Source: Filomicrobium sp. (GTDB lineage Bacteria; Pseudomonadota; Alphaproteobacteria; Rhizobiales; Hyphomicrobiaceae). From it: 15,911 bases of DNA. Made by a program: the position numbers and the translations under genes. Shown one piece after another: positions 978 to 15,911 of this stretch; position 1 is the first letter of the stretch; every line of letters begins with the position of its first letter. The notes under the pieces are model-generated. The model did not search any database. It was not told where the DNA came from and saw only the letters and a program-made list of their open reading frames with translations. The stretch lies in NCBI GenBank assembly GCA_021775655.1, contig JAJFHK010000419.1, positions 1 through 15,911 on the forward strand. The letters are read 5' to 3'.

Positions 978-1484
978 TTGACGCAAGAATCCGAGAACCA
1001 GGCAGCTTCAGCCAAAACCTTTGCGATTGGCCGCGTCGTCTCACGCCGCTACGCGTTCACCGCCGAAAACATCAAGGCGTACGCCGAGATGGCCGGCGAC
1101 ACGAACCCGCTGCATCACGATCCCGAGCTGGCGACTGCCAGCCGCTTTGGCGAGATCATCGCAGCCGCAGCACACTCAACAGGAGTCTTGATTTCCGTTG
1201 CCGCCGACAAGTTCGCACGCAACGGCGAGTCTGTCGGCCTTGGCTTCAATCTGACCTTGCGGCGTGCCGTTAAAGCCGGGAGTGTGACGGATCTGATCTG
1301 GAAAATTACCGGCAAGGAATGGTCGGACAAATTAGGCGGCACTGTCGTCGAACTTGCAGGCGAGATACGCGATATCAATAGCAATCTGCCGCTGCTGCTT
1401 GCTGAAGGCCGCATGCTAGTTCTGAGCACTCCGGAGACTCAACCGCGAAACACCGCCGCCCCTTCGAGTGAACCTGCGTCATGA
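978..1484 (+). CDS. MaoC-like (R)-hydratase domain protein, hotdog fold
   Basis: A 168-residue single-domain MaoC-like protein. The (R)-specific enoyl-CoA hydratase motif is intact: [14 protein letters not shown] at residues 39-52, with Asp41, Asn43 and His46 in the positions of the catalytic Asp and His. It could hydrate an enoyl-CoA or dehydrate a hydroxyacyl-CoA; the substrate cannot be read from the sequence. The start is TTG at 978, the only start codon downstream of the in-frame stop at 969-971, with a GGGGG run about 10 bases upstream. The stop overlaps the cobT start as ATGA, which implies translational coupling. A hydratase between cobS and cobT is not explained by B12 chemistry. It may serve B12-dependent acyl-CoA metabolism, or be a noncatalytic hotdog protein. 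The last 20 or so residues are rich in Pro, Ser and Ala and look like a disordered tail. Confidence 0.88.
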
Positions 1485-3367
1485 CCATAAAACGCAAGGA
1501 ACCGCCCGTAGAACCCTTCAAGAGGTCACTGACGGCCTGCGTGCGCACAATCGCTGGCGACAGTGAGGTACAGGTCGCCTTTCATGCCGGCCAACCGCTG
1601 CTCGTTGGAAAGTCCGTTAATCTACCAGAACCTCCGCGCACGCCGACCAAACTTGAGATCGCCGTCCTGCGCGGTTGCGCAGACTCGCTTTCACTCCAGG
1701 CCGCCTGCCACGATAAGCGCTTGCACGAGCGCCTCGCTCCCTCGCACGGGCCAGCCCGAGATGCGTTTGAAGCAATGGAGCGGGCCCGCATCGAGGCGGT
1801 CGGATCCAATCGCATGGAAGGTGTGGCGCAAAACCTCACTGCCAAACTCGAAGCAAGCTACGCCCACGGCCGTTTCGCCAAAGTACGTTCCCGCGAAGAA
1901 GCACCATTGCCCGACGCACTTGCATTACTGGTTCGACAGCATTTGACCGGCGACGCCCCTCCCGAAAACGCCAAGGCCCTAGTTGACGAATGGCGTCCGT
2001 GGGTCGACGAACGCGCTGGCGATCTTTTCGAACGGCTAAGCGAGCACGTCGACGATCAAGAAGCGTTCGCTCGCCTCATGCAAGACATGTTGCGCGCCTT
2101 CGACCTGATCCAGGATGCTCAGGAGGCACAGGGGTCAGAGCAGGAAGAACAGGAGCCTGACGTTTCCGAGGGCGGCAGTGAATCGTCGGACGAGAACGAA
2201 GCAGGTGAAACTGGCACCGAAGAACAAGAACCCCAGGACGCCGCCGAGCAGGACAACCTTGGCGAACTCGACGAAAACGATCTGCCTGCTCCGGCTGACG
2301 AGAATGATAACGAAGAACTCCAAGGCGACGAATCCACCGAGACCTCGGAACCATGGCGGCCAAACGCCTCCGTACTCGATGACCCTGAATTATTCGGATA
2401 CAGGGTTTTCACTCGCGAACATGATGAAGAAGAAGCCGCAGAAAACCTTGCCACCCCTGAGGAACTCGATCGCCTGCGTGCCTTCCTCGACAAAGAACTG
2501 CGCGGCCTCTCCAGCGTTGTCGCCCGTCTCGCAAACCGATTGCAACGCCGCCTGATGGCACAACAAAATCGCGACTGGGATTTCGACCTTGAGGAAGGTG
2601 CACTCGATTCTTCAAGGCTGACCCGCGTTATCGTCGACCCCACCGCACCGCTGTCATTTAAGCAGGAAAGCGACATCAATTTCCGAGACACCGTCGTCAC
2701 GCTGCTGATCGATAACTCCGGCTCCATGCGCGGCCGGCCCATCCTGGTTGCCGCCTGTTGCGCCGACATACTAGCACGCACGTTGGAGCGCTGCGGCGTC
2801 AAAGTCGAGATCCTCGGCTTCACGACGCGCGCCTGGAAAGGCGGCCAGGCGCGCGAAGCCTGGCTAAATGATGGCAAGCCCCCTAACCCCGGCCGCCTCA
2901 ACGATCTTCGCCATATCGTCTACAAGACCGCCGATGCACCTTGGCGAAGAACCAAGCGTTCGCTCGCCTTGATGATGCGCGAAGGGCTGCTGAAGGAAAA
3001 CATTGACGGCGAGTCGCTCGCCTGGGCCCACCGGCGTCTCCTTGGCCGACCAGAGCAGCGCCGTATTCTGATGATGATCTCAGACGGAGCACCAGTCGAT
3101 GACTCGACCCTTTCGGTGAATTCACCACACTACCTTGAACATCACCTGCGCCAAGTGATCAACGAAATCGAAACCAAGAGCCCGGTCGAGCTGATTGCCA
3201 TCGGCATCGGCCACGATGTCACACGCTATTATCGCCGCGCCGTGACAATTACCGACCCGAGCGAACTTGCCGGAGCAATGACCGACAAGCTTGTTGAGCT
3301 GTTCGAAGAAAAAAGTGCTGCCGCGCCGAAACGCAGAGGCCGCAAGGGTCGCCATAGCCTGCATTGA
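1481..3367 (+). CDS. cobT: Aerobic cobaltochelatase subunit CobT
   Basis: CobT is the VWA-domain partner of CobS; together they form the ATP-driven chaperone complex that activates CobN for cobalt insertion. The 628 residues match the family's usual length of about 630. The order is an N-terminal helical region (about 1-215), a strongly acidic linker of Glu, Asp, Gln and Ser (about 221-290), a central helical segment, and a C-terminal VWA domain. The MIDAS motif DNSGSMRG has Asp411, Ser413 and Ser415, and a conserved [12 protein letters not shown] lies further on. The C-terminus is basic (KRRGRKGRH). The ATG sits in an ATGA overlap with the MaoC-like gene and lacks a strong Shine-Dalgarno, so its translation probably depends on the upstream gene. 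The acidic linker is normal for CobT and is not a sign of damage. Confidence 0.97.
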
Positions 3368-4607: not shown

Positions 4608-5273
4608 TCAAGCGTTGACCGACACGCTTACATGCTGCTGCTGACCAGACGTAGCGCCCTTTGCATCAGAAACGATTGTATCAAATCCCGCAGTCGGCGC
4701 GCTTGCCCCATCATGCACAAATATCACCTGACCGCTTTCAAGATCGGCCTGAGTGAACGAGCTGACAGATGTCGATCGGGCAGACTCTAATGCAACGAAC
4801 CCGTTCGTCGGCTTACTCACCGCAAAGGTGAGATCCTTAGCGTCGTCATCGGGATCGAATGCAGTTAGATCGGTTGTCGTAATCTGCACTGAACCGCCCC
4901 GGTCGACGCTTAGGTGGAGATCGCCAGCCATGTGCGGGGGGATATTTCGCAGCGTCGCACTAAGCTCACCGCCTTGATCCATTGAGATCTTGCCGTATTC
5001 GACTTTCCCGCTAACCGAACCGGTTTGCCCGATACGGATCAGCTCATGAATAGAAACGTCACCTTGGACAGCCCCATGCACCTCGGCGTTCTTCGCCTTC
5101 AGCGAACCAAAGACCCCACCTGTCTCGCTAATCATTACCGATTGCGCCGACAGATTACCTTGCACACGACCGTTGACGATAATCCCACCCTTAGAGATGA
5201 TATCACCCTCAATGACCAAATCGGACCCAATGACGCTACTCTTTGCTGGCTCGCTCAATGAGTTACTCCACAC
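4608..5273 (-). CDS. Bactofilin with C-terminal cadherin/CSPG-like domain
   Basis: A 221-residue protein in two parts. Residues about 12-107 are a bactofilin (polymer-forming cytoskeletal) domain with the typical right-handed beta-helix pattern: VIGSDLVIEGDIISKGG, VNGRVQGNLSA, EVHGAVQGDV, GSVSGKVEYGKI. Bactofilins self-assemble into filaments on the inner side of the membrane without nucleotide. Residues about 116-221 differ: DLTAFDPDDDAKDLTFAVSK, NGFVALE, SSFTQADLESGQVIFVHDGA and GFDTIVSDAKG follow the cadherin-like/CSPG repeat normally found in large surface adhesins. I see no signal peptide or membrane segment. The start is GTG at 5273, the only start codon before an in-frame upstream stop, with GAAGAG a few bases upstream. 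The gene converges with the phytase-like gene and diverges from the gene at 5518. Confidence 0.9.
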   Translation of the reverse strand: MWSNSLSEPAKSSVIGSDLVIEGDIISKGGIIVNGRVQGNLSAQSVMISETGGVFGSLKAKNAEVHGAVQGDVSIHELIRIGQTGSVSGKVEYGKISMDQGGELSATLRNIPPHMAGDLHLSVDRGGSVQITTTDLTAFDPDDDAKDLTFAVSKPTNGFVALESARSTSVSSFTQADLESGQVIFVHDGASAPTAGFDTIVSDAKGATSGQQQHVSVSVNA

Positions 5274-6015: not shown

Positions 6016-8754
6016 TCAGTTCGCTGTTACCGCAGGTAGACGGAACCAGAAAGTTGCTCCATCGCCGATCTCGCTCTCGACACCGATTTCGCCACCAAAG
6101 TACTTTATTATTTCAACGCAGATTGGCAGACCAAGCCCTGTACCTTTAGGCTTGTCGGTGAGCATGTTCCCGACTTGTTGGAAGCGCTGGAAAACCTTGG
6201 CGTGATCCCCGGGTGCAATGCCTAACCCGTTGTCTTTCACACGGACGACGAGGGCATCATCAATATTCTCAGCCGTAACGCGAACAACGCCGTCCTTCTT
6301 GTCACAGAACTTCGTGGCGTTGGAGATCAAATTCACGATGACTTGGGTTAATCGATCCGAATCGGCATTGACGGTTGGAAGGTCCGGCGCAATATCGGTT
6401 TCCAGTCTGATCTTGCGATCTTCCTGGCGGAATGGTCCGCTCGTGGCAATGAGGGCGTCTTGAATGACCGGTCCCGATGCGGTTTCTTGAAGCTGCCAAT
6501 CGATTTGGCCAGCTTCCATTTTTGCCATGTCTAGAATGTCGTCGATCAGCCTCGTCAGGCGCTCGCTTTCCTTGACAATGATGTTTACGAATTCTTTCTT
6601 TTTCTCGTCTGGCATGTCGGGGTTGTCAAAAATAATCTCGGCGAATGATCGAATGGAAGTCAGCGGCGTGCGCAGCTCATGACTGACTGTTGAAATGAAG
6701 CCGTCCTTCAGCCGGTCGAGTTCCTTGAGGCGCGTATTTGCTGCCTTCAAGTCATCTGTCGCAATCTCCAATTCGCGCGACTTCTGCTCAAGGCGCCGGC
6801 TGTACTCAATGACCTGAGAAGCCTCATCAAGCATCTCCATCATTTCATCAAGATCGTGCAATTCCTCGCGCACGACTGAGGCAGTCATAATCCGGGCGCT
6901 CGCCGTACCGATTGCGCCCGCAAGTTGGCGCTCACCGAAAGCAACCAAGTTGGCGTCAGCAGGACTGTCGTCTGCAAATTTCCTACCCAATGACAGCTCG
7001 TACTGTCCAAACGCTTCCTGCATGCGCGCCTCTCCGACAAAACGCGCCACCAGTTGTCTGATTTCTCCAACAGCTGCACTGCCGCGCCAAACCCGGTGCC
7101 CATCAGAACCATCGCGGAAGACGTCGACGAATTGAATGGCTTGGCTTCGTTCAATTACGCTTCGCGACGTCCACAACGAAACAAGGATGAACGAACCGAT
7201 GTTAAATACCAGTGTCCAGAACAGTGCGTGGCTGATCGGGTCCAAGCCCTGCAGTCCCAGCAACGAATAGGGTTTCAACATCTCAATGGAGAACGGTCCG
7301 TGTTCCAGGAATGACGCAGGGATCCAGCCCGAACGCGCAAATGACGGAATAAGTAACGTATAGGCCCATAACACAAATCCCGCAGTCAGCCCGGCAGTGG
7401 CACCCGCGCGATTACCGCGCTTCCAATATAGACCCGCCAGGATCGGTGGTGCAAATTGGGCGGCCGCAGTAAATGAGACAAGCCCGATCGAGACGAGTGC
7501 ATACGAGTCGCCAATCAGTCGGACATAAACATACCCCAGCAACAGTAGCAGCGCGATCGTACATCGCCGTATCGTCAGAATGAGGCCACTCAAGTCAGCG
7601 CGCTCGGAAAGGTGCAGCTTGCGCATTCGCAAAAGGAAAGGCATCACGAGATCGTTTGAGACCATCGTACTAAGAGCCACCGTCGCCACGATAATCATCG
7701 CTGTTGCTGCCGACAGGCCGCCAATGAAAGCGAACAGCGCCAGGGCCTCCTGCTTTTCGGCCATCGGCAAAGTCAACATAAACGTATCTGCATTCACTGT
7801 GCCGTCGGGAAATCGCAACAGGCCACCAAATGCGATCGGCAGCACGAAAATATTGATCAAGAAAAGATAGAGAGGGACGAGCCAAATCGCCTTTTTCAAA
7901 TGTTCTTCATTCACGCATTCGACGATCGTGACTTGGAACTGCCGGGGTAGAAAAATAATCGCACACATAGACAAGAGAGTCAGTGACACCCAGCTCGTAT
8001 AGCCCCCTGAACCCTCAATGGTGAATAGGCTGGCTAGCTTTCCGGAGGCCTGAGCTTTCTCGAATATGTCACCGAAACCGTCATACATGCCGAACGTGAC
8101 AAACAGACCGACGGCGAGAAAAGCCAGGAGTTTCACAACCGACTCGAAAGCAACAGCCGCGACCATTCCCTCGTGATGCTCGCTGGCATCGATATGGCGA
8201 GTGCCGAAGAGTATGGCGAACATGCCCAGGAAAACTGAAACGTAAAGGGCTGTGTCTGCAAATATCGAAACACTATCCGAGTTCGACGGCACCGAGGCAA
8301 CCCACGGATACTGCAGCAGCATTGTGAAGCTAGTGGAGACCGCTTTCAGCTGCAGCGAGATGTAGGGCATGATGCCCACCACAGCAATTATCGTAGCAAG
8401 GCCACTCAGCGTTGCGCTCTTGCCGTATCGCGACGCAATGAAATCAGCAATCGATGTGATCCGATGGACCTTGGAAATACGGATTATCTTCCGCAACACG
8501 AACCAGCCAAGAATAAATGTTAGCGTCGGTCCAAGGTAGATAGGCAAAAAGCCTACACCATTCGAGGCAGCGCGACCGACGCTTCCATAGAAGGTCCAGG
8601 ACGTGCAGTAGACGGCGATCGAGAGGGCATAAATATATGGATTGGAGATAATACTTCGGTTCTGATCAGCGCGCTTGTCGCCCCAGTATGCAATGGCAAA
8701 CAGGATGCAAAGGTAGAGGCAGGCGACGGAAACTATGATCCAGCCTTGCAACAC
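6016..8754 (-). CDS. Sodium/solute symporter-type sensor histidine kinase (SSS-STAC-HisKA-HATPase)
   Basis: A 912-residue membrane sensor kinase. Residues about 1-520 form an SSS-family (PutP-like) transporter domain with many hydrophobic segments. Residues about 555-630 look like the STAC segment that links SSS domains to kinases in the CbrA/CrbS group (for example IRQLVARFVGEARMQEAFGQY read across 565-585). A probable coiled coil follows (about 635-690), rich in Glu and Leu. The HisKA motif STVSHELRTPLTS carries phospho-acceptor His692. The ATPase domain has the N box NLISNATKF (808-816), G1 DNGLGIAP (841-848) and G2 GTGLGLP (871-877). All catalytic motifs are intact. No PAS domain is evident between STAC and HisKA. 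The likely start is GTG at 8754, or TTG three bases on; AAAGG lies just upstream. It is the last gene of an operon with a receiver protein and a two-TM protein. By analogy with CrbS and CbrA it may sense acetate, amino acids or another small solute; this is inference. Confidence 0.93.
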   Translation of the reverse strand: MLQGWIIVSVACLYLCILFAIAYWGDKRADQNRSIISNPYIYALSIAVYCTSWTFYGSVGRAASNGVGFLPIYLGPTLTFILGWFVLRKIIRISKVHRITSIADFIASRYGKSATLSGLATIIAVVGIMPYISLQLKAVSTSFTMLLQYPWVASVPSNSDSVSIFADTALYVSVFLGMFAILFGTRHIDASEHHEGMVAAVAFESVVKLLAFLAVGLFVTFGMYDGFGDIFEKAQASGKLASLFTIEGSGGYTSWVSLTLLSMCAIIFLPRQFQVTIVECVNEEHLKKAIWLVPLYLFLINIFVLPIAFGGLLRFPDGTVNADTFMLTLPMAEKQEALALFAFIGGLSAATAMIIVATVALSTMVSNDLVMPFLLRMRKLHLSERADLSGLILTIRRCTIALLLLLGYVYVRLIGDSYALVSIGLVSFTAAAQFAPPILAGLYWKRGNRAGATAGLTAGFVLWAYTLLIPSFARSGWIPASFLEHGPFSIEMLKPYSLLGLQGLDPISHALFWTLVFNIGSFILVSLWTSRSVIERSQAIQFVDVFRDGSDGHRVWRGSAAVGEIRQLVARFVGEARMQEAFGQYELSLGRKFADDSPADANLVAFGERQLAGAIGTASARIMTASVVREELHDLDEMMEMLDEASQVIEYSRRLEQKSRELEIATDDLKAANTRLKELDRLKDGFISTVSHELRTPLTSIRSFAEIIFDNPDMPDEKKKEFVNIIVKESERLTRLIDDILDMAKMEAGQIDWQLQETASGPVIQDALIATSGPFRQEDRKIRLETDIAPDLPTVNADSDRLTQVIVNLISNATKFCDKKDGVVRVTAENIDDALVVRVKDNGLGIAPGDHAKVFQRFQQVGNMLTDKPKGTGLGLPICVEIIKYFGGEIGVESEIGDGATFWFRLPAVTAN

Positions 8755-8759
8755 AACCT

Positions 8760-9029
8760 TTACGCCCCTTCTGGATCGCCGGACGCTGAATTTTGCGTAT
8801 GGTCATCAGCGGGCGGGTAGTTTTCGGTTGCGGGAGGGGAAAATTCAGCGACGAGCGCCAGAAGAACAATGAGCAGTGCCCAGGCAGCGAATAAGTACAA
8901 GTAGAGCGCTGGCACGCCTGCAACCAGCACAGGCTCATCAAAGATCGTTAGCAGCGGCGGATTGAGTAGCAGGACGCCGAGAAGAAATAGTGCAACCAGG
9001 CGTTCTGCTAATAGGTGGTTGGTGTTCAT
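8760..9029 (-). CDS. Small two-TM protein paired with SSS sensor kinase
   Basis: An 89-residue protein with two hydrophobic segments: LVALFLLGVLLLNPPLL near the N-terminus, then VPALYLYLFAAWALLIVLLALV. A short, acidic, Pro-rich, soluble C-terminus follows. The chosen ATG at 9029 has AAGGG seven bases upstream. An ATG at 9059 would add ten residues (MTGAGAKGAA) but lacks a good Shine-Dalgarno. The stop is only five bases before the kinase start, so the two products are probably made together. The segment PALYLYLFAAWALLI resembles small accessory subunits of SSS-family transporters (the DUF3311/DUF4212 type), so it may be a second subunit of the transporter domain. Family assignment is tentative; the existence of the gene is well supported by hydropathy and spacing. 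Confidence 0.75.
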   Translation of the reverse strand: MNTNHLLAERLVALFLLGVLLLNPPLLTIFDEPVLVAGVPALYLYLFAAWALLIVLLALVAEFSPPATENYPPADDHTQNSASGDPEGA

Positions 9030-9084
9030 CGCCGCGCCCTTAGCACCTGCACCGGTCATCTTGATTCGACCAGCGCGACCTCAC

Positions 9085-9468
9085 TCAGCTCGCCTTACGT
9101 TCTTCGCTCAACATTTCCTGCACGCGCTTCAAGATATCACGTGTCGAGAATGGCTTCGTCAAATAATCGTCGGCGCCCAGAGCTAGGCCCTTCTCACGTT
9201 CAGAGTCACGCCCCTTGGCGGTCAACATCATGATTCTCGTTGCATTCCAAGCAGGATTGGCGCGTATCGCTTTACACACTTCGAACCCATCCAACTTGGG
9301 CATCATAACGTCGAGGATGACGAGGTCGGGAACCATTTCCTCGACCTTCTTTAACGCCTCTTCGCCATCGCTCGCTGATCCGGTTTCGAAGCCAGCGTTC
9401 TTCATGACGAAACTCAAAGATGTGACGATATAGCTTTCGTCATCGACGATCAGGACTGATTTTACCAT
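9085..9468 (-). CDS. Single-domain response regulator (CheY-like receiver)
   Basis: A 127-residue receiver domain with no output domain. The acidic pair Asp9-Asp10, phospho-acceptor Asp53 (LVILDVMMPKLDG), Thr83 (MLTAKG) and Lys105 (DDYLTKPF) are all present, so it should accept phosphate. The ATG at 9468 is chosen because AAGGAA lies six bases upstream and the protein starts with the usual MVKSVLIVDDE; the open frame upstream to 9525 is not family-like. It is the first gene of the operon, followed after 25-55 bases by the two-TM protein and then the kinase, its probable phosphodonor. With no DNA-binding domain it must act through protein contact or as a phosphate relay to an unseen partner. 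The receiver's C-terminus (QEMLSEERKAS) ends right after the domain, so nothing is missing. Confidence 0.94.
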   Translation of the reverse strand: MVKSVLIVDDESYIVTSLSFVMKNAGFETGSASDGEEALKKVEEMVPDLVILDVMMPKLDGFEVCKAIRANPAWNATRIMMLTAKGRDSEREKGLALGADDYLTKPFSTRDILKRVQEMLSEERKAS

Positions 9469-9519
9469 CTTTGCTTCCTTTCGCGGACTCAGCGATCCGC
9501 TGGCTAACCTTTGTCGGCC

Positions 9520-9538
9520 GATCACAAGCCATGTGATC
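9520..9538. promoter_or_regulatory. 7-bp inverted repeat upstream of the receiver-kinase operon
   Basis: GATCACA (9520-9526) and TGTGATC (9532-9538) form a perfect inverted repeat with a 5-base spacer, 52-70 bases upstream of the receiver ATG. It could be an operator near the operon promoter or a small hairpin in the leader. There is no T-run on the minus strand, so it does not look like an intrinsic terminator for livF. The half-sites are in the opposite order to a CRP site. The rest of the 157-base spacer between livF and the receiver gene holds no feature I can name with confidence. Confidence 0.4.
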
Positions 9539-9625: not shown

Positions 9626-10384
9626 TCAGATTGCAAGATATTCGTGGCGGAGCTCTTCGTTATCTAGAACCTCCTGGGCAGTACCCGTGAACGCGACTTG
9701 TCCAGTATCCAGGATAATAGCGCTGTCGGCGAGCTTAAGCGCGGCAACAGCGTTCTGCTCAACAATAATCGTAGTAATACCCGCCTGTTTGACCTCTTGC
9801 AGAATCTTTTCGATTTCTTGAACGATCGTTGGTGCAAGGCCTTCGTAGGGTTCGTCTAAGAGGAGCAGCTTAATCTCGCGAGCGAGTGCACGCGCGACTG
9901 CCAGCATTTGCTGTTCGCCCCCCGAAAGCGTGACACCTTCCTGCTTCCGCCGCTCAGCCAGACGCGGGAAGTGATTGTAAATTCGCTCAAGCTCCCAGCC
10001 CTTCGGCTCCGCGATCTGAGCAAGTATGAGGTTTTCTTCGACCGTCAGACCCGGAATAATGCTGCGATCCTCCGGCACCAACTGCACACCTGCTTGCGCC
10101 GCTTGGTAGTCGGCCAACTTATGCAATGCCTTGCCGTTAAGAAATATCTCGCCGGCATTGAGGCTGGGATTGTCCATCCGCGCAATCGTTCTAAGCGTAC
10201 TGGTCTTGCCGGCTCCATTGCGGCCGAGCAATGCGACGATCTCGCTTTCTGCAACATCGAATGACACACCTTGCACAATGTAGCTTTCGCCGTAGTAAGC
10301 GTGGATGTCCTTACAGGCGAAATAAGCATTCTCTTTTTGTGCGGCGGCAGATGCGGCTTGGGAGGTATCGGTTGCCATCGTCAT
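9626..10384 (-). CDS. livF: HAAT-family ABC transporter ATP-binding protein, LivF-like
   Basis: A 252-residue ABC ATPase, the second nucleotide-binding subunit of a branched-chain-amino-acid-type (HAAT) importer. It has a Walker A GRNGAGKT (residues 54-61), a Q-loop region VQLVPEDRSIIPGLTVEENL typical of LivF-like proteins, the signature LSGGEQQ (153-159), a Walker B LLLLDEP (173-179) and the H-loop region replaced by IIVEQN, as is usual in LivF. The ATG overlaps the livG stop (ATGA), and GGAGGAG sits eight bases upstream; an internal ATG at 10378 is a less likely start. About 20 residues rich in Ala and Gln precede the domain. It is the last gene of the importer operon. The substrate cannot be deduced, so the liv symbol denotes family only. 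Confidence 0.93.
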   Translation of the reverse strand: MTMATDTSQAASAAAQKENAYFACKDIHAYYGESYIVQGVSFDVAESEIVALLGRNGAGKTSTLRTIARMDNPSLNAGEIFLNGKALHKLADYQAAQAGVQLVPEDRSIIPGLTVEENLILAQIAEPKGWELERIYNHFPRLAERRKQEGVTLSGGEQQMLAVARALAREIKLLLLDEPYEGLAPTIVQEIEKILQEVKQAGITTIIVEQNAVAALKLADSAIILDTGQVAFTGTAQEVLDNEELRHEYLAI

Positions 10385-11139
10385 CCCAGTTCTCCTCCAA
10401 GGTAAGCTTCAATTACTCGTGGATCCCCTTTGATAGCTTCAGGCTCACCTTCGACGATGACCGTTCCCTGAGCGAGAACAGAAATGCGTTCGGCCAAAGA
10501 AAATACAACGTGCATGTCATGCTCGATAATGATCTTTGTGATCCCGCGTTCACCGATCTTTTTGAGAAGATCAATCGTGTTGTTGGTATCGGCCCGTGAC
10601 ATTCCTGCGGTCGGCTCATCCAGGAGCAATAGCTTGGGGTGCTGGATCAGGCACATTGCAAGTTCCAGGCGGCGCTTGTCACCGCGAGAAAGCGAATCGG
10701 TGATGACGTTGCGCTGATCGGCCAATCCAACTTCCTCAAGCATGGACAGGGCTTCTTCACTCACTTCGCCGCGCTTTGCGATCGACCCCCAGCCATTGAA
10801 TCGGAAGTTGCCATCGTGCTTGGCAAACGACGGGATCATGACGTTCTCCAACAAGCTCATGTCACCGAAGACTTCCGGCGTTTGAAAAACGCGGCATACT
10901 CCAAGCTGGTTGATTTCATGGGGTGTAATTCCACCGAGCAATGAAGTGCCGTTGAAATTTACCACGCCACTGTCAGGCTCCAATTTGCCGATCAGGCAAT
11001 TGAGCAACGTTGACTTTCCCGCACCGTTCGGACCGATGATGGCGTGCACAGAGCTTTCTTTAACGCTCAGGTTCACATCCGTAAGTGCCTTGAGGCCGCC
11101 AAATCTCTTGTTGACTCCGGAAACTTCCAGGATAGCCAT
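10381..11139 (-). CDS. livG: HAAT-family ABC transporter ATP-binding protein, LivG-like
   Basis: A 252-residue ABC ATPase, partner of the LivF-like subunit on the cytoplasmic face of the importer. The Walker A is GPNGAGKS (36-43), followed by the Q-loop CRVFQTPEVFGDMSLLENV. The signature is LSRGDKRRLE (150-159) rather than LSGGQ; LivG proteins commonly deviate here. The Walker B is LLLLDEPTAGMS (170-181), and the switch histidine is in IIEHDM. The start is ATG 11139 with a strong AGGAGGGG about seven bases upstream, 14 bases after livM. The insertion KHDGNFRFNGWGSIAKRGE between the Q-loop and signature corresponds to the long loop seen in LivG. The stop overlaps the livF start by four bases, so the two ATPases are probably translationally coupled. 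Confidence 0.93.
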   Translation of the reverse strand: MAILEVSGVNKRFGGLKALTDVNLSVKESSVHAIIGPNGAGKSTLLNCLIGKLEPDSGVVNFNGTSLLGGITPHEINQLGVCRVFQTPEVFGDMSLLENVMIPSFAKHDGNFRFNGWGSIAKRGEVSEEALSMLEEVGLADQRNVITDSLSRGDKRRLELAMCLIQHPKLLLLDEPTAGMSRADTNNTIDLLKKIGERGITKIIIEHDMHVVFSLAERISVLAQGTVIVEGEPEAIKGDPRVIEAYLGGELG

Positions 11140-11153
11140 TTAACAGCCCCTCC

Positions 11154-12383
11154 TCATTCTGCCGGTTGGGTTTGTCCAGACCGGGAGTCGGCATTTGACT
11201 TGCCGCCGCCAGTGAACAAGTTGCCGATGCGCTGGGCCCCTTCCATCAATCCGCCCGGGAGGAAGATCACGATAAACATGAAGAGCACGCCCAAGGTCAG
11301 ATGCCAGCCCTCGCCGACGAACGGGTGGGTGATCGTCACCATGAAATCAGCGACGCCGTCAGGCAGGAATTCGAATGCAGAATGTAGAATGCCCTTGTTG
11401 AAGGACGAGAAAATATTCTCAAAATACTTGATGACGCCGGCGCCAAGCACCGGCCCGAGTAGAGTTCCAGCACCCCCAAGGATGGTCATAAGCACAACTT
11501 CGCCCGATGCCGTCCACTGCATGCGCTCTGCACCTGCCAGAGGATCGGTAACGGCCATCAACGAACCGGCAAGCCCGGCATACATCCCCGAAACGACAAA
11601 AGCGGCAAGGAGGTATGGGCGCGTGTTGATGCCCGTATAAGACATCCGATTCTGGTTCGTCTTGATTCCGCGCAACATCATTCCGAACGGCGATCGGAAT
11701 ATTCGGATAGAGATATAGAACGATATAATAAGGATGATCGCGCAAAGGTAGAAGCCCTCGTAGCCGCTCATCTTTATTCCGAACAGGTTCGTGATAGGCA
11801 GACTTGAAGTGCGCTCCACACCAAACGCCGCATCGACCATGCGTGCATCACCCAGCGTCAGCTGCAAGCCCGTCTCACCATTGGTGATTGGCGTCAAAAC
11901 CGAATAGGCAAGGTTGTATGACATTTGCGCGAAGGCCAATGTCAATATCGAGAAGTAGATGCCAGCACGGCGCAAGCACACATAGCCAATCAATGCCGAA
12001 AACAGGCCGGCACAAACGACGCCAAAGAACAAGGCTGGTATCGCATTCATCGTCAGCAGCTTGAACGACCAGACGGCTGCATAAGAACCGATGCCGAGGA
12101 ATGCAGCATGACCAAAGGAAAGGTATCCTGTCAGGCCAAACATGATGTTGAAGCCGATTGCAAAGATGCCGAAGATGCAAAACCGCTGCAGCAAATCGGG
12201 GTACGCCGCACCGAACGGCGCCAACACCCACGGGCTTGCCAGCACGACAGCGGAAAACACAGCCATCAATATAAGATCGTTCCGCGCCGTATTGCTGCGT
12301 GAAGCAGCCTCGACTTCGTGGATCTCAATTGTCAGCGGCTCCATGTCGAGCGGTGACTTAATCTTCTCCAAGTTCTGCGACAT
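11154..12383 (-). CDS. livM: HAAT-family ABC transporter permease, LivM-like
   Basis: A 409-residue inner-membrane permease of the BPD_transp_2 type. Family motifs are [20 protein letters not shown] in the first third, a coupling-helix region [20 protein letters not shown] facing the ATPases, and [14 protein letters not shown] towards the end. Several strongly hydrophobic segments fit the usual eight to ten membrane helices. The first 35 or so residues ([17 protein letters not shown] onward) are hydrophilic and lie before the first helix. The C-terminal tail [18 protein letters not shown] is hydrophilic too. The start ATG at 12383 is four bases after the livH stop, with GGAGAG inside the livH end as Shine-Dalgarno. 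Together with LivH it forms the transmembrane channel. The substrate is unknown. Confidence 0.93.
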
Positions 12384-12387
12384 GGTT

Positions 12388-13416
12388 TTAGCTCTCCATC
12401 ACGCCTTTGCGGCCCATCAGTCCGCGAGGACGAACGAGCAGAATGACGACGGCGACGAGATAAATAATGATCTGATCGATTCCGGGCAGAATGTTTTTGA
12501 CCTCGTTCATCGAGGCGAAGGACTGCAGTACGCCCAGAAGGAAGCCGGCAGCTACAGCGCCAGGCAGTGAACCCATCCCACCGACAACAACGACGACGAA
12601 GGACAGGACAAGGAAGTCCATCCCCATATGGTAGTCGGGCGGCAATATGGGTGTGTACATTACCCCTGCTAGCCCGGCGACCACCGCCGCCAGTCCAAAG
12701 ACAACCGTAAATCGCTTCTGAATGTTGATGCCCAATAGGCCAACGGTTTCACGGTCGGCCATACCTGCGCGAACGACCATCCCGTAGGTCGTGAATTGCA
12801 AGAAGGAAAAGACGATGCCGATGATCAGGCCGGAGAATAATAGGTAAATAATGCGCCAATAGGGATACACGACCGTTCCAGGATCAAATCCGATTATCGC
12901 GCCGATATCTGCTGAACCAGCGAGCAAGACGGGTGCTGCTTGCGGAATTGGGTTGGCCCCAAATTGCGCTTTGATGATTTCCTGAACGACGATTGCCAAT
13001 CCAAAGGTGACGAGAATCTGGTCGGCGTGCGGGCGCTTATAGAAGTACCGGATCAGTCCACGCTCCATGATGACGCCAATGAGCAACATGATCGGTATTG
13101 CGAACAAGATCGAGAACGGAACCGAATAGTCGACCAAGAATGCGCCGAAATCACCGAACCATTGCTGGACAATTGGGGTCCTGGTTTCCGCCGGAGTACC
13201 CCAAGGGGTCAACTTCGATGGGTCAAGCGTGACAACTTCGTAGCTTAGAAACTTACCTACGGTAACAGCGCAGAAAGCCCCGAGCATGAACAACGCGCCA
13301 TGCGCAAAGTTCACGACCCCGAGGGTTCCAAAGATAAGCGTCAGCCCAAGCGCAATCAGAGCATAGGCAGCGCCTTTATCCAGGCCATTGAGGATTTGAA
13401 GCAGGATGGCGTCCAT
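12388..13416 (-). CDS. livH: HAAT-family ABC transporter permease, LivH-like
   Basis: A 342-residue permease with the LivH hallmark N-terminus [20 protein letters not shown] followed by [21 protein letters not shown] coupling-region motif ([20 protein letters not shown]) and [17 protein letters not shown] near the end are also present. The ATG at 13416 is chosen: GGAG lies eight bases upstream, and the protein then begins MDAILLQIL as family members do; the 17 extra codons to 13467 have no family character. Residues about 55-100 ([18 protein letters not shown] onward) form a hydrophilic insertion compared with the shorter E. coli LivH, expected in the periplasm. It follows the binding-protein gene across a 134-base spacer that contains a large stem-loop, and is the first permease gene of the importer. 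Confidence 0.93.
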
Positions 13417-13470
13417 CTTGCGCACTCCAATCCAGGAATTTTTGCTAGTGCCGATTGAACGGCGCAAGGC

Positions 13471-13521
13471 TCTCCGGCCGTGCTTGGCGCAACCATAGCA
13501 GTTGCGCTGTACGGCCGGAGA
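13471..13521. terminator. Large nested stem-loop between binding-protein gene and livH
   Basis: The outer arms TCTCCGGCCGT (13471-13481) and ACGGCCGGAGA (13511-13521) are perfect 11-bp complements. Inside them, GCGCAAC (13487-13493) pairs with GTTGCGC (13501-13507) around a 7-base loop, with a small asymmetric internal bulge. The element lies 30 bases after the binding-protein stop and before livH on the minus-strand transcript. No T-run follows in the transcribed direction, so it is more likely an mRNA-stabilising or partial-termination element than a classical terminator. Such elements commonly give the binding protein more mRNA than the permeases. A second GCGCAA at 13462-13467 could pair with the same right arm. 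Confidence 0.65.
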
Positions 13522-13550
13522 TATGGCGATAGGCTAGTTAATCAACCTGA

Positions 13551-14897
13551 TTATGCGCCGTTGTTGCAGGAACCAAGCTGTCCACCAAGCAGGTCAGGCT
13601 TGTATTCGACCTGCGAGCGAGGCGTAACCTCAACGACTTCGAGAACGTCGAACTTGGAATCCGGGTTTTCTTTACCCTTCACCACGAGCACGTCCTTGAA
13701 GCACTGATGGTCTTCAGCCCGGTATTCGGTCGCACCATTGCCCATTCCGTCAAACTTGAAGCCCTCAAGAGCCTTGGCGACATCACAAGGTGCAAACGAG
13801 CCGGCACGCTGACAGGCATCAGCGTAGAGGAGCGCTTGTACATAGCAGGTGTGCGCAGCCTGCGAGGGCGGGAAGCCGTAGGCCTGGCCGAATGATTTGA
13901 CGAACGCCTTGGAGCCTTCGTCCTGCAGTGACCAGTGCCAGTTCGTTGAGCCGAAGATGCCCTGGACGTTCTTGCCGGCACCCTGAGCCATCAGGCGGCT
14001 ATAGAGCGGCACAACAATCGCGAAGTCCTTGCCGTTGACCTGCTTGTCGCGAAGACCGAACTGGACGGCCTGTGTCAACGAGTTGACCATGTCCTTACCG
14101 TAGTGGTTGAGGACCAGCACGTCGGCTCCTGAATTGAGGACCGGCGTGATGTACTGCGAGAAGTCGCCGGCACCAAGCGGTGTGCGGACAGCCGCGGCGG
14201 TCTTCCAGCCAAGTGCCTCAGTGTATTTCTTGATGGAGCCTTCCTGCGACCAACCCCAAGTGTAGTCGGCCGTAAGATGATAGGCGGTACGATCCGTACC
14301 GAATGCATTCTTAAGCACCGGTGCCAGCGCCGCCCCAGACATCTCCGTATTAAAGAAGTGGCGGAAGCCGTTGGCCTTCTTGTCTTTGCCCGTCGTGTCG
14401 TTGGAGTGGGTCAGACCGGCCATAAATATCACGCCAGCTTCCTGGCACAGTCCCTGGACGGCGATTGCCACACCCGACGACGAACCGCCGGTGATCATGA
14501 TGGCACCGTCCTTTTCGATCATGCGCTTGGCAGAAGCACGCGCGGCGTCTGATTTGGTCTGCGTGTCGCCGGTAACGAACTCGACCTTCTTCCCGTTGAC
14601 GCCATTACCTTTCAGCTCTTTCGAGGTGAAGGTATTGAGCATTCCGCCGTCACCTTCGCCATTGATGTGCTGAACCGCAAGCTTGTAGGCGCGCAGCTCG
14701 TCAGCGCCTTCATCGGCATAGGCACCGGTTTGCGGCACGTTGAAACCGAAAATCACGCTCTTGCCCTTCGGCATGTTGCGATAGTCTGCGGCACCCGCAC
14801 CGCGAACGAAGTGGAATGGTGCTGTCGCAATGGCCGCACCGGCAAGGCCGGTTTTCAGGATAAGGCGACGGTTGACGTTATCGTCGAATAGACTCAT
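13551..14897 (-). CDS. HAAT-type ABC transporter periplasmic substrate-binding protein
   Basis: A 448-residue solute-binding protein of the Peripla_BP_6 / LivJ-like class. The N-terminus NRRLILKTGLAGAAIATAP carries a twin-arginine pair (10-11) before a hydrophobic stretch, suggesting a Tat-type signal, with likely cleavage near GAGAAD (about residue 36). The mature part follows the family: VIFGFNVPQTGAYADEGADE, then AITGGSS-type and AGLTHSN-type pocket regions, and ADYTWGWSQEGS. Five cysteines lie late in the protein (in CYVQ, ACQR, PCDV, QCFK and GSCN), which may form disulfides. The ligand (amino acid, amide, urea or other) cannot be fixed. The start ATG 14897 has GGAGGAA nine to ten bases upstream. 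It is the first gene of the importer operon and diverges from the XRE regulator. Homologues of this length are larger than E. coli LivJ. Confidence 0.93.
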   Translation of the reverse strand: MSLFDDNVNRRLILKTGLAGAAIATAPFHFVRGAGAADYRNMPKGKSVIFGFNVPQTGAYADEGADELRAYKLAVQHINGEGDGGMLNTFTSKELKGNGVNGKKVEFVTGDTQTKSDAARASAKRMIEKDGAIMITGGSSSGVAIAVQGLCQEAGVIFMAGLTHSNDTTGKDKKANGFRHFFNTEMSGAALAPVLKNAFGTDRTAYHLTADYTWGWSQEGSIKKYTEALGWKTAAAVRTPLGAGDFSQYITPVLNSGADVLVLNHYGKDMVNSLTQAVQFGLRDKQVNGKDFAIVVPLYSRLMAQGAGKNVQGIFGSTNWHWSLQDEGSKAFVKSFGQAYGFPPSQAAHTCYVQALLYADACQRAGSFAPCDVAKALEGFKFDGMGNGATEYRAEDHQCFKDVLVVKGKENPDSKFDVLEVVEVTPRSQVEYKPDLLGGQLGSCNNGA

Positions 14898-15015: not shown

Positions 15016-15083
15016 TTTGTATTCACAGAGATTTTTTGTAAAATTCCCCAGGCAGGAGTGCGGTAATTTGTAAAACTGTAAAC
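15016..15083. promoter_or_regulatory. Cluster of TTTGTA-type motifs in divergent spacer, candidate operator region
   Basis: TTTGTA occurs at 15016-15021, 15035-15040 (inside TTTTGTAAAA, 15034-15043) and 15067-15072, where it continues as TTTGTAAAACTGTAAA (15067-15082), so a half-site repeats as CTGTAAA. Such clustering in a 224-base spacer (14898-15121) between two divergent transcripts suggests a regulator site. As I recall, ScfR/RamB-type XRE regulators bind TTTGCAA-like repeats, which would fit autoregulation by the adjacent gene; this is family analogy only. A weak promoter-like pair for the + strand is TTGTAT (15017-15022) and TAAAAT (15039-15044) with 16-base spacing. The rest of the spacer shows only the hairpin near 14940. 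Confidence 0.4.
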
Positions 15084-15121: not shown

Positions 15122-15911
15122 ATGGTTGCAATTCCAGTCGGTTCTCGCCTGCGTGAAGCTCGCAAGAAACATCGGCTCACACAGTCAAAGCTTGCTGAGA
15201 TTGTCGGCATCTCAGTGAGCTACCTCAATCTGATCGAACACAACAAGAGAGCAATTGGCGGTGCCCTGTTAGGCAAGCTGGCGCGAGAACTCGAACTCGA
15301 CATATCTCGACTGTCTGGCCAAGAAGATGCACGCCTCATGCAGCAGCTCGGAGAGCTGAGCGCTGAGCCGTTATTCCGAGATATCCAGCTTTCGGAAAAG
15401 GGCGCGCAACACATCGCCAGCCGGGAACCGGACTGGGCACGGGCTATCATTCGCCTGCACAATGAGTGGCGCAGTAACGGCGAACTCATCGAAGCATTAT
15501 CGGATCAGCTGAATAGTGATCCATATCTGCTGGAAACCAGCCACGAAATCTTGACCCGCATCACGTCAATTCGGTCGTTCGCCGAGATTCTCGATGATAA
15601 CGACGATCTAACCGAACCTCAAAGCGCGCGTTTCACGTCATTTATTGCCAAGGAGAGCGAGAAACTCACCAGCAGTGCCCGCGCGCTGTTTCACTTTTTG
15701 AGCGAACAGGAATCGCAAAGTCAGCCATCGACGCCTGCCGGTGAAGTCGATGACTTCATCATCGACCGCAACAACTACTTTCCGGAGCTCGAAAGCGAGG
15801 CATCGAAGCTCTTCGACCGGCTTCAGCATTCCGGCATGGTCGATGAGCGCGCGCTTATCGACGAACTGACCGATCGGTGCAGATTGACGGTCACTTTCGA
15901 AACCTTGGTCA
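15122..15911 (+). CDS. XRE-type HTH regulator with HisKA-like segment, 3'-truncated by window edge
   Basis: The open frame runs 263 codons to the window end without a stop. Residues about 7-65 form an XRE/Cro helix-turn-helix (GSRLREARKKHRLTQSKLAE, then GISVSYLNLIEHNKR), as in the ScfR/RamB/IrrE-linked regulators. Residues 139-192 are surprising: SHEILTRITSIRSFAEIL, then FIAKESEKLT, closely matches a histidine kinase DHp helix. His141 is kept in the phospho-acceptor position, but the usual Pro six residues later is Arg. From about residue 210, DDFIIDRNNYFPELESEASK begins what may be an ImmA/IrrE-type C-terminal domain, cut off before any HExxH motif could be seen. ATG 15122 is the only start before an in-frame stop at 15071-15073; the Shine-Dalgarno is weak. 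It diverges from the importer operon and probably regulates it, itself, or both. Confidence 0.88.
   Translation, partial: MVAIPVGSRLREARKKHRLTQSKLAEIVGISVSYLNLIEHNKRAIGGALLGKLARELELDISRLSGQEDARLMQQLGELSAEPLFRDIQLSEKGAQHIASREPDWARAIIRLHNEWRSNGELIEALSDQLNSDPYLLETSHEILTRITSIRSFAEILDDNDDLTEPQSARFTSFIAKESEKLTSSARALFHFLSEQESQSQPSTPAGEVDDFIIDRNNYFPELESEASKLFDRLQHSGMVDERALIDELTDRCRLTVTFETLV

Follow-up and report, generated by a model that had tools for sequence, protein, structure and literature searches.

Why should a DNA-binding regulator carry what looks like the phospho-acceptor helix of a histidine kinase? The question is raised by a 15,911-nucleotide stretch of Filomicrobium sp. DNA (hereafter the window), in which an XRE-type regulator contains a segment resembling the DHp of an SSS sensor kinase encoded nearby. 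From the sequences, we recognize the identity of the domain, its insertion in an ScfR frame, its closeness to the SSS kinase over other kinases, its linkage to the kinase cluster, the conservation of its His, and paired boxes upstream of the regulator. Our reading as a whole, which we consider fairly probable, is that the copied DHp serves as a docking module and, in most lineages, as a phospho-acceptor module for a receiver lacking an output domain. The regulator comprises the following features.

15122..15911, plus strand: XRE/ScfR-type regulator, N-terminal 263 residues; HTH_3 at 44.4 bits; runs off the contig end
15149..15307, plus strand: HTH_3 DNA-binding domain, residues 10-62; Pfam PF01381, 44.4 bits, cut-off 23
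15428..15517, plus strand: predicted helix leading into the DHp, residues 103-132; AlphaFold helix 103-132 in the relative L003 and 103-130 in the window stretch
15518..15700, plus strand: HisKA-derived DHp hairpin, residues 133-193; helices predicted at 134-159 and 165-199
15542..15544, plus strand: His141, equivalent of the kinase phospho-acceptor His; codon CAC

The regulator frame occupies 15122-15910 and the window is the entire contig, so the protein is cut off at the contig end. Relatives were drawn from 561 candidates in named genomes, of which the best 80 were kept, mainly Rhodobacteraceae, Thalassospira, and Rhodospirillales; most were chosen by likeness to the window protein including the insert, and all 80 have the DHp stretch. 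Their frames measure 385-580 aa, cut ones left aside; regulators of L029-L033 and other Rhodobacteraceae loci are about 100 residues shorter, with frames mostly of 420-475 aa. At E up to 1, HTH_3 is present in 81 of 81 aligned members and the ScfRs domain in 77; the M78/IrrE part is detected in just 30 of them despite the frequency of ScfRs. One relative (L034) holds HTH_3, HisKA, M78, and ScfRs within one frame. The window's own assembly (70% complete) contains no ScfRs match, and the regulator there ends at the contig end. Four cysteines (C425, C509, C512, and C517) stand at 90% or above in the relatives' alignment, in a part missing from the window protein. The same Cys plus C-X2-C-X4-C occurs in the sampled ScfR genes, save for one gap in a fragment, and these are the [4Fe-4S] ligands of PrpR according to passages of PMC6765138.

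The match that first drew attention to this protein is reproducible: regulator residues 140-183 align without gaps to kinase residues 691-734, with 24 of 44 identical. BLASTP of the regulator against the SSS kinase returns 25 of 51 identical residues (E 7e-12 for this single pair), and Smith-Waterman alignment of residues 133-193 with the kinase scores 128, against a maximum of 59 in 2000 shuffles (mean 30.3, sd 4.5). Chance or composition as the source of the match is ruled out by these shuffles together with the ranking within genomes given below. The refuting result named in the earlier note, a HisKA score no better than background, did not occur: the match beats shuffles and the relatives' profile finds PDB histidine kinases. 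With Pfam HisKA, the window protein itself gives 19.5 bits (E 0.001) where the curated cut-off is 26.9, and we therefore call the stretch HisKA-derived rather than a canonical HisKA. At E up to 1, 35 of the 81 aligned proteins match the family, the best of them at 7.8e-11, and some relatives pass the cut-off, for example L034 with 37.7 bits.

In a PDB search with the relatives' profile, PrpR covers positions 58-131 and 201-433, skipping the part between, and HK853 covers positions 127-198 (E 0.0011); since one skips the segment that the other covers, the DHp is an insertion in a PrpR-like regulator. The DHp domain alone has HK853 as its top match (E 1.1e-4). The segment directly after it aligns to PrpR, leaving no degenerate CA domain behind the DHp, and a domain scan listed no HATPase_c for the window part, L003, or L034. 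The helical hairpin that the earlier note had asked of structure prediction appears in two models: the full-length AlphaFold model of L003 (mean pLDDT 87.9; helices 103-132, 134-159, and 165-199) and a model of the window's own stretch (mean pLDDT 74.3). Fold matches are topped by histidine kinases, yet they are not significant alone; the fold does not discriminate. By these alignments and predictions, regulator residues 133-193 are a HisKA-derived DHp hairpin inserted in an ScfR frame.

How common is the insert? A sample of 114 genomes of the class, in which the insert was not a criterion, yielded 39 ScfR matches in 31 genomes; 38 were readable and one was a fragment (L111/L159). The insert is present in 15 of the 38 genes (DHp profile at least 85.9 bits) and absent from 23 (at most 12.7 bits), with 67-72 residues between the flanking parts in the former and 0-17 in the latter. 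That a DHp is not standard in ScfR regulators, as had been stated at the outset, is borne out: the stretch is missing from PrpR and from these 23 genes, which marks it as an insertion. In a survey of 387 genomes of the class, the window's own included, at a threshold of E 1e-21 or better (the best SSS kinase in 21 genomes reached only 6.5e-19), 53 genomes carry one regulator-DHp match each, representing 35 of 264 genera. The DHp insert is a conserved trait of a subfamily and not an oddity of one protein. The earlier observation itself stands, and is corrected on two points: the regulator is truncated by the contig end, and its feature belongs to a subfamily. In a tree, the 60 regulator DHps fall on one side of one branch (100/100), which fits a single origin; where they belong among the SSS kinases depends on a long branch and a small number of columns. 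The regulator DHp was probably copied from the cognate kinase, a direction that we infer over the reverse.

The arrangement was already visible in databases, where PF00512 stands beside PF09856 in 9 of 120 relatives listed of 982 database matches, and one ScfR has appeared in print beside two-component genes (passages of PMC10370305). Among titles and abstract beginnings from searches of one open-access library, we found no description of a DHp in an ScfR or XRE regulator.

The remainder of the window holds the candidate partners of the regulator.

6016..8754, minus strand: SSS (SLC5-like) sensor histidine kinase, 912 aa; HisKA 71.2 and HATPase_c 93.3 bits
6508..6708, minus strand: kinase HisKA/DHp, residues 683-749; acceptor His692 at 6679-6681
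8760..9059, minus strand: small hydrophobic protein of 99 aa between receiver and kinase; no family above cut-off
9085..9525, minus strand: single-domain response regulator (receiver only); PF00072 109.3 bits, residues 24-136 of 146
9626..14897, minus strand: branched-chain/urea-type ABC operon, divergent from the regulator
9626-10384 and 10381-11139, minus strand: ABC ATPases; one scanned, the second named by eye
11154-12383 and 12388-13467, minus strand: ABC permeases; both scanned
13551-14897, minus strand: ABC binding protein; scanned

When the first 651 residues of the kinase are taken alone, the SSF family scores 23.9 bits (cut-off 22.8); it is unlisted for the whole protein. Homologues of the 99-aa hydrophobic protein recur near receiver and kinase in many loci. 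Elsewhere in the window lie genes for the cobaltochelatase subunits CobS and CobT (1-960 and 1481-3367), with a MaoC-like gene between (978-1484), and a 221-aa frame joining a bactofilin with a cadherin-like domain (4608-5273).

Across 80 loci, the receiver is found in 72, the SSS kinase in 69, and the ABC binding protein in 55. With 25 loci showing no ABC operon in view, receiver and kinase are more closely linked to the regulator than the operon is. In 65 of 80 loci, the receiver follows the regulator in the same orientation at a distance of up to about 700 bp. Of 72 receivers, 71 carry no output domain behind the receiver domain, the exception (L049) having 98 further residues. The kinase is out of view in 11 loci, at least three of them cut by the contig end. 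The order in the window, with kinase and receiver beyond the ABC operon, is rarer and shared with L003, L050, and L063. In the sample of 114 genomes, the SSS kinase lies within about 9 kb of the regulator in 13 of the 15 insert-bearing cases; in the other two (L106, where the receiver is adjacent, and L152) it is on another contig. Genomes that have the insert contain a full-length SSS kinase in 15 of 15 cases, those that lack it in 4 of 98 (own genome excluded; Fisher 2e-15, a value uncorrected, like the linkage counts, for shared descent). Stretches of 7-13 kb around the 23 insert-less ScfR genes contain no SSS kinase, binding protein, or permeases, and give four weak generic matches (kinases at 30 and 105 bits, a receiver at 50, an ABC ATPase at 53). 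Gene order, co-occurrence across genomes, and sequence agree with the earlier proposal that links the DHp to the nearby kinase and the single-domain receiver.

Some SSS-kinase clusters without a DHp regulator have other genes beside the kinase. In three (L190:8016-10496, L192:2078-4780, and L193:7936-10083), a PAS - HisKA-like - DEDDh exonuclease protein (RNase_T 125-131 bits) is encoded between receiver and SSS kinase; we considered it as a second such DHp capture and set it aside, as it has no H-box His and perhaps a degenerate CA. In another (L191:4538-5209), a receiver-LuxR (FixJ-like) regulator stands beside the SSS kinase.

The regulator DHp resembles the cognate kinase more than any other. 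We built a regulator-DHp profile from 60 of 81 regulator rows and an SSS-kinase profile from 51 of 69, near-copies removed by hand. Run over 21 genomes, the regulator-DHp profile has the regulator as its top match and a frame of 886-1004 aa as the next in 21 of 21; these frames, taken as SSS kinases by length and, mostly, by place, score 56-70 bits, and the best other frame scores 18-45 bits (below 30 in 15 of 21 genomes). In the window's own genome, the SSS kinase reaches 58.0 bits vs 20.9 for the next of 19 HisKA matches, and in that of L003, 59.4 vs 13.9 for the next (18 HisKA matches). Profile-profile comparison of regulator and SSS-kinase DHps returns 99.6% probability. The likeness is concentrated in alpha1. 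Positions +8, +11, and +15 from the His correspond to HK853 residues 268, 271, and 275, with His260 placed by alignment, and are among the residues changed in a rewired-interface structure. At these positions, 50 regulator-cognate kinase pairs agree in 63% vs 14% for regulators against 29 other kinases (those of 35 such loci in which the stretch could be used); across alpha1 as a whole, the values are 46% and 22%. At two alpha2 positions (HK853 294 and 297), they are 15% and 11%.

The H-box tells a related story of loss and retention. The window protein keeps the acceptor His141 and has Arg in place of the kinase Pro, both as originally described, and its residues at +1, +3, +4, and +5 are E, L, T, and R. 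The SSS-kinase DHps read H-E-x-R-T-P in 51 of 51, and the 60 regulators have His in 59, Glu at +1 in 29, Arg at +3 in 7, Ser/Thr at +4 in 57, and Pro at +5 in none. In kinases, the +1 acid serves autophosphorylation and the +4 residue dephosphorylation. Ala or Ser stands at +8 in 59 of 60 regulators, a position that seems to be that of CckA A330/ChpT A30. By these comparisons, the regulators' autokinase features are eroded, with the His and the alpha1 face kept and alpha2 not. A Pro before the His was considered as a ChpT-like kink and dropped, as the ChpT Pro seems, from PMC9981736, to lie after its His.

Random loss of the His among homologues, named in the earlier note as a refuting result, is not what is seen. 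The His is kept in 80 of 81 aligned relatives, in 117 of 120 relatives listed of 982 database matches, and in 45 of 53 genomes drawn by class, or 32 of 35 genera. The exceptions in the last set are three genera, with Phe in five genomes of one, Gln in two of another, and Tyr in one genome; the His is also missing in L063, P0083, P0088, and P0108, though the domain stays. Among 68 positions, His141 ranks third in conservation and Arg151 seventh (101 of 201 rows after thinning). Arg151 is lost in 6 of 8 His-less vs 4 of 45 His-bearing genomes (by genus, 2 of 3 vs 2 of 32, p 0.03). Because three genera keep the domain without the His, phosphotransfer cannot be its sole use across the family.

A candidate DNA target lies between the regulator and the ABC operon.

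15035..15042, no strand assigned: TTTGTAAA, box 1 of the paired putative operator
15067..15074, no strand assigned: TTTGTAAA, box 2, starting 32 bp after box 1

The pattern TTT[GA][CT]AAA occurs 78 times in 51 of 80 upstream regions (the window plus 79 loci) vs 2.35 expected from letter shuffles, and 29 regions have none; 22 pairs are spaced 31 or 32 bp. In five genomes picked for having the exact TTTGTAAA pair upstream of the regulator, that pair is found nowhere else, and the reversed pair pattern has zero occurrences. RamB-type ScfR sites are described in parts of PMC10370305 as two near-identical boxes with an 18-bp spacer. Such a spacer would fit boxes of 13-14 bp in the window.

These features suggest the following course of events. 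An ScfR-type (PrpR/RamB-like) regulator would long ago have gained the DHp of the SSS kinase from the same cluster, between its HTH-linker part and its acyl-CoA/Fe-S part. The SSS kinase would sense a membrane substrate and phosphorylate the single-domain receiver, which lacks an output of its own. The receiver would then dock on the regulator DHp, where the alpha1 recognition face of the kinase is largely retained, and its phosphate would, in most lineages, pass to His141 (Asp to His), the direction in which phosphate moves from Spo0F to Spo0B. Docking or phosphorylation would alter the DHp bundle and, with it, the grip of the paired HTH domains on a TTTGTAAA-N24-TTTGTAAA operator. We infer the docking, the phosphate flow, the effect on DNA binding, and the ligand from the features above; as we read them, receiver docking fits all lineages seen, and phosphate transfer to His141 fits most. 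The sequences suggest that the regulators may read the kinase signal through a small shuttle protein. More tentatively, the system could be a phosphorelay that ends in a His-phosphate on a DNA-binding protein, its acceptor domain being a copy that an acyl-CoA-sensing ScfR regulator took over from the kinase of the same pathway; membrane-sensed signals (SSS kinase, receiver, and DHp) would there be joined with intracellular ones (acyl-CoA and Fe-S).

Counting against this best reading are the His-less genera, the H-box changes, the divergence of alpha2, the kinases on other contigs, and the loci with no kinase in view. The receiver, or its phosphorylated form, may act as an allosteric ligand that docks without phosphotransfer, as in DivL, with His141 as a contact residue. 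Three genera without the His keep the domain, and one His-less genome with Phe (G033) keeps the cluster too; the Tyr at this place in L063 and G333 recalls DivL, and the alpha1 recognition residues are retained. Still, the His is otherwise third in conservation of 68 positions, whereas DivL does well without one, and Ser/Thr at +4 is retained in 57 of 60 regulators; we judge docking alone unlikely.

The regulator DHp may instead pair with the kinase DHp, tethering the regulator to the membrane or exposing it to trans phosphorylation by the kinase CA. Its nearest relative is that very kinase, and a copied dimer interface would be a ready hetero-dimer interface, but the gene directly downstream is that of the receiver in 65 of 80 loci, the residues beside the H-box His and in alpha2 have diverged, and the paired boxes suggest that the regulator would bind as its own dimer; such hetero-association seems quite improbable. 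The DHp is a dimerization domain, and the hairpin may merely hold two HTH domains at the spacing of boxes 31-32 bp apart, the His and the cluster being leftovers. This we find very hard to credit, given that PrpR and 23 of 38 sampled ScfR genes manage without the insert, that His141 and Arg151 rank third and seventh of 68 in conservation, and that the kinase co-occurs with the insert in 15 of 15 genomes vs 4 of 98.

For many single-domain receivers, which lack any output of their own, no target is known; in this family, the sequences by themselves point to a candidate, the regulator that bears the kinase's own DHp. If our preferred reading of a docking and phospho-acceptor module is true, it provides a search rule (output-less receivers with a DHp copy nearby that has no ATPase domain), a route by which two-component signaling could control a metabolite-sensing regulator, and non-pathogenic Alphaproteobacteria, Ruegeria or Thalassospira for instance, in which to test it readily.

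Known systems share parts of this design. Members of the ScfR family (PrpR, RamB, and PccR) have in common with full-length relatives of the regulator the HTH, the linker, M78/IrrE-like and ScfRs parts, and the Cys motif, and also show paired operator boxes; they differ in that the DHp insert is absent from PrpR and from 23 of 38 ScfR genes sampled, and M78 is detected in only 30 of 81 aligned relatives. In Paracoccus denitrificans, Pden_1785 is a member of an ScfR network whose gene clusters with two-component genes (passages of PMC10370305), and judging from this description it probably belongs to the DHp-bearing subfamily. In these passages the authors proceed with three other ScfRs, and the main text never uses the words 'histidine', 'domain', or 'IrrE'. 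The kinases CbrA and CrbS/MxtR, like the window kinase, fuse an SSS domain to a DHp-CA; in a figure legend of PMC7918813 their response regulators are drawn with DNA-binding parts, unlike the receiver here.

Spo0B and ChpT resemble the regulator DHp in being DHp-derived and free of kinase activity, and they exchange phosphate with receivers (sections of PMC9981736). ChpT is the closest known phosphotransferase; the same sections call the CckA A330/ChpT A30 contact strictly conserved. ChpT keeps a degenerate CA and seemingly the +5 Pro, and serves further receivers, whereas the DHp here is fused to a DNA-binding protein and has neither CA nor +5 Pro. DivL keeps its CA, carries Tyr in place of His, and feeds into the CckA-ChpT-CtrA pathway rather than acting on DNA itself; its DHp-CA reads DivK~P without adding or removing phosphate (excerpts of PMC4211667). 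It offers the precedent of a DHp turned into an input module for reading a single-domain receiver, the role that we propose for the DHp of this regulator.
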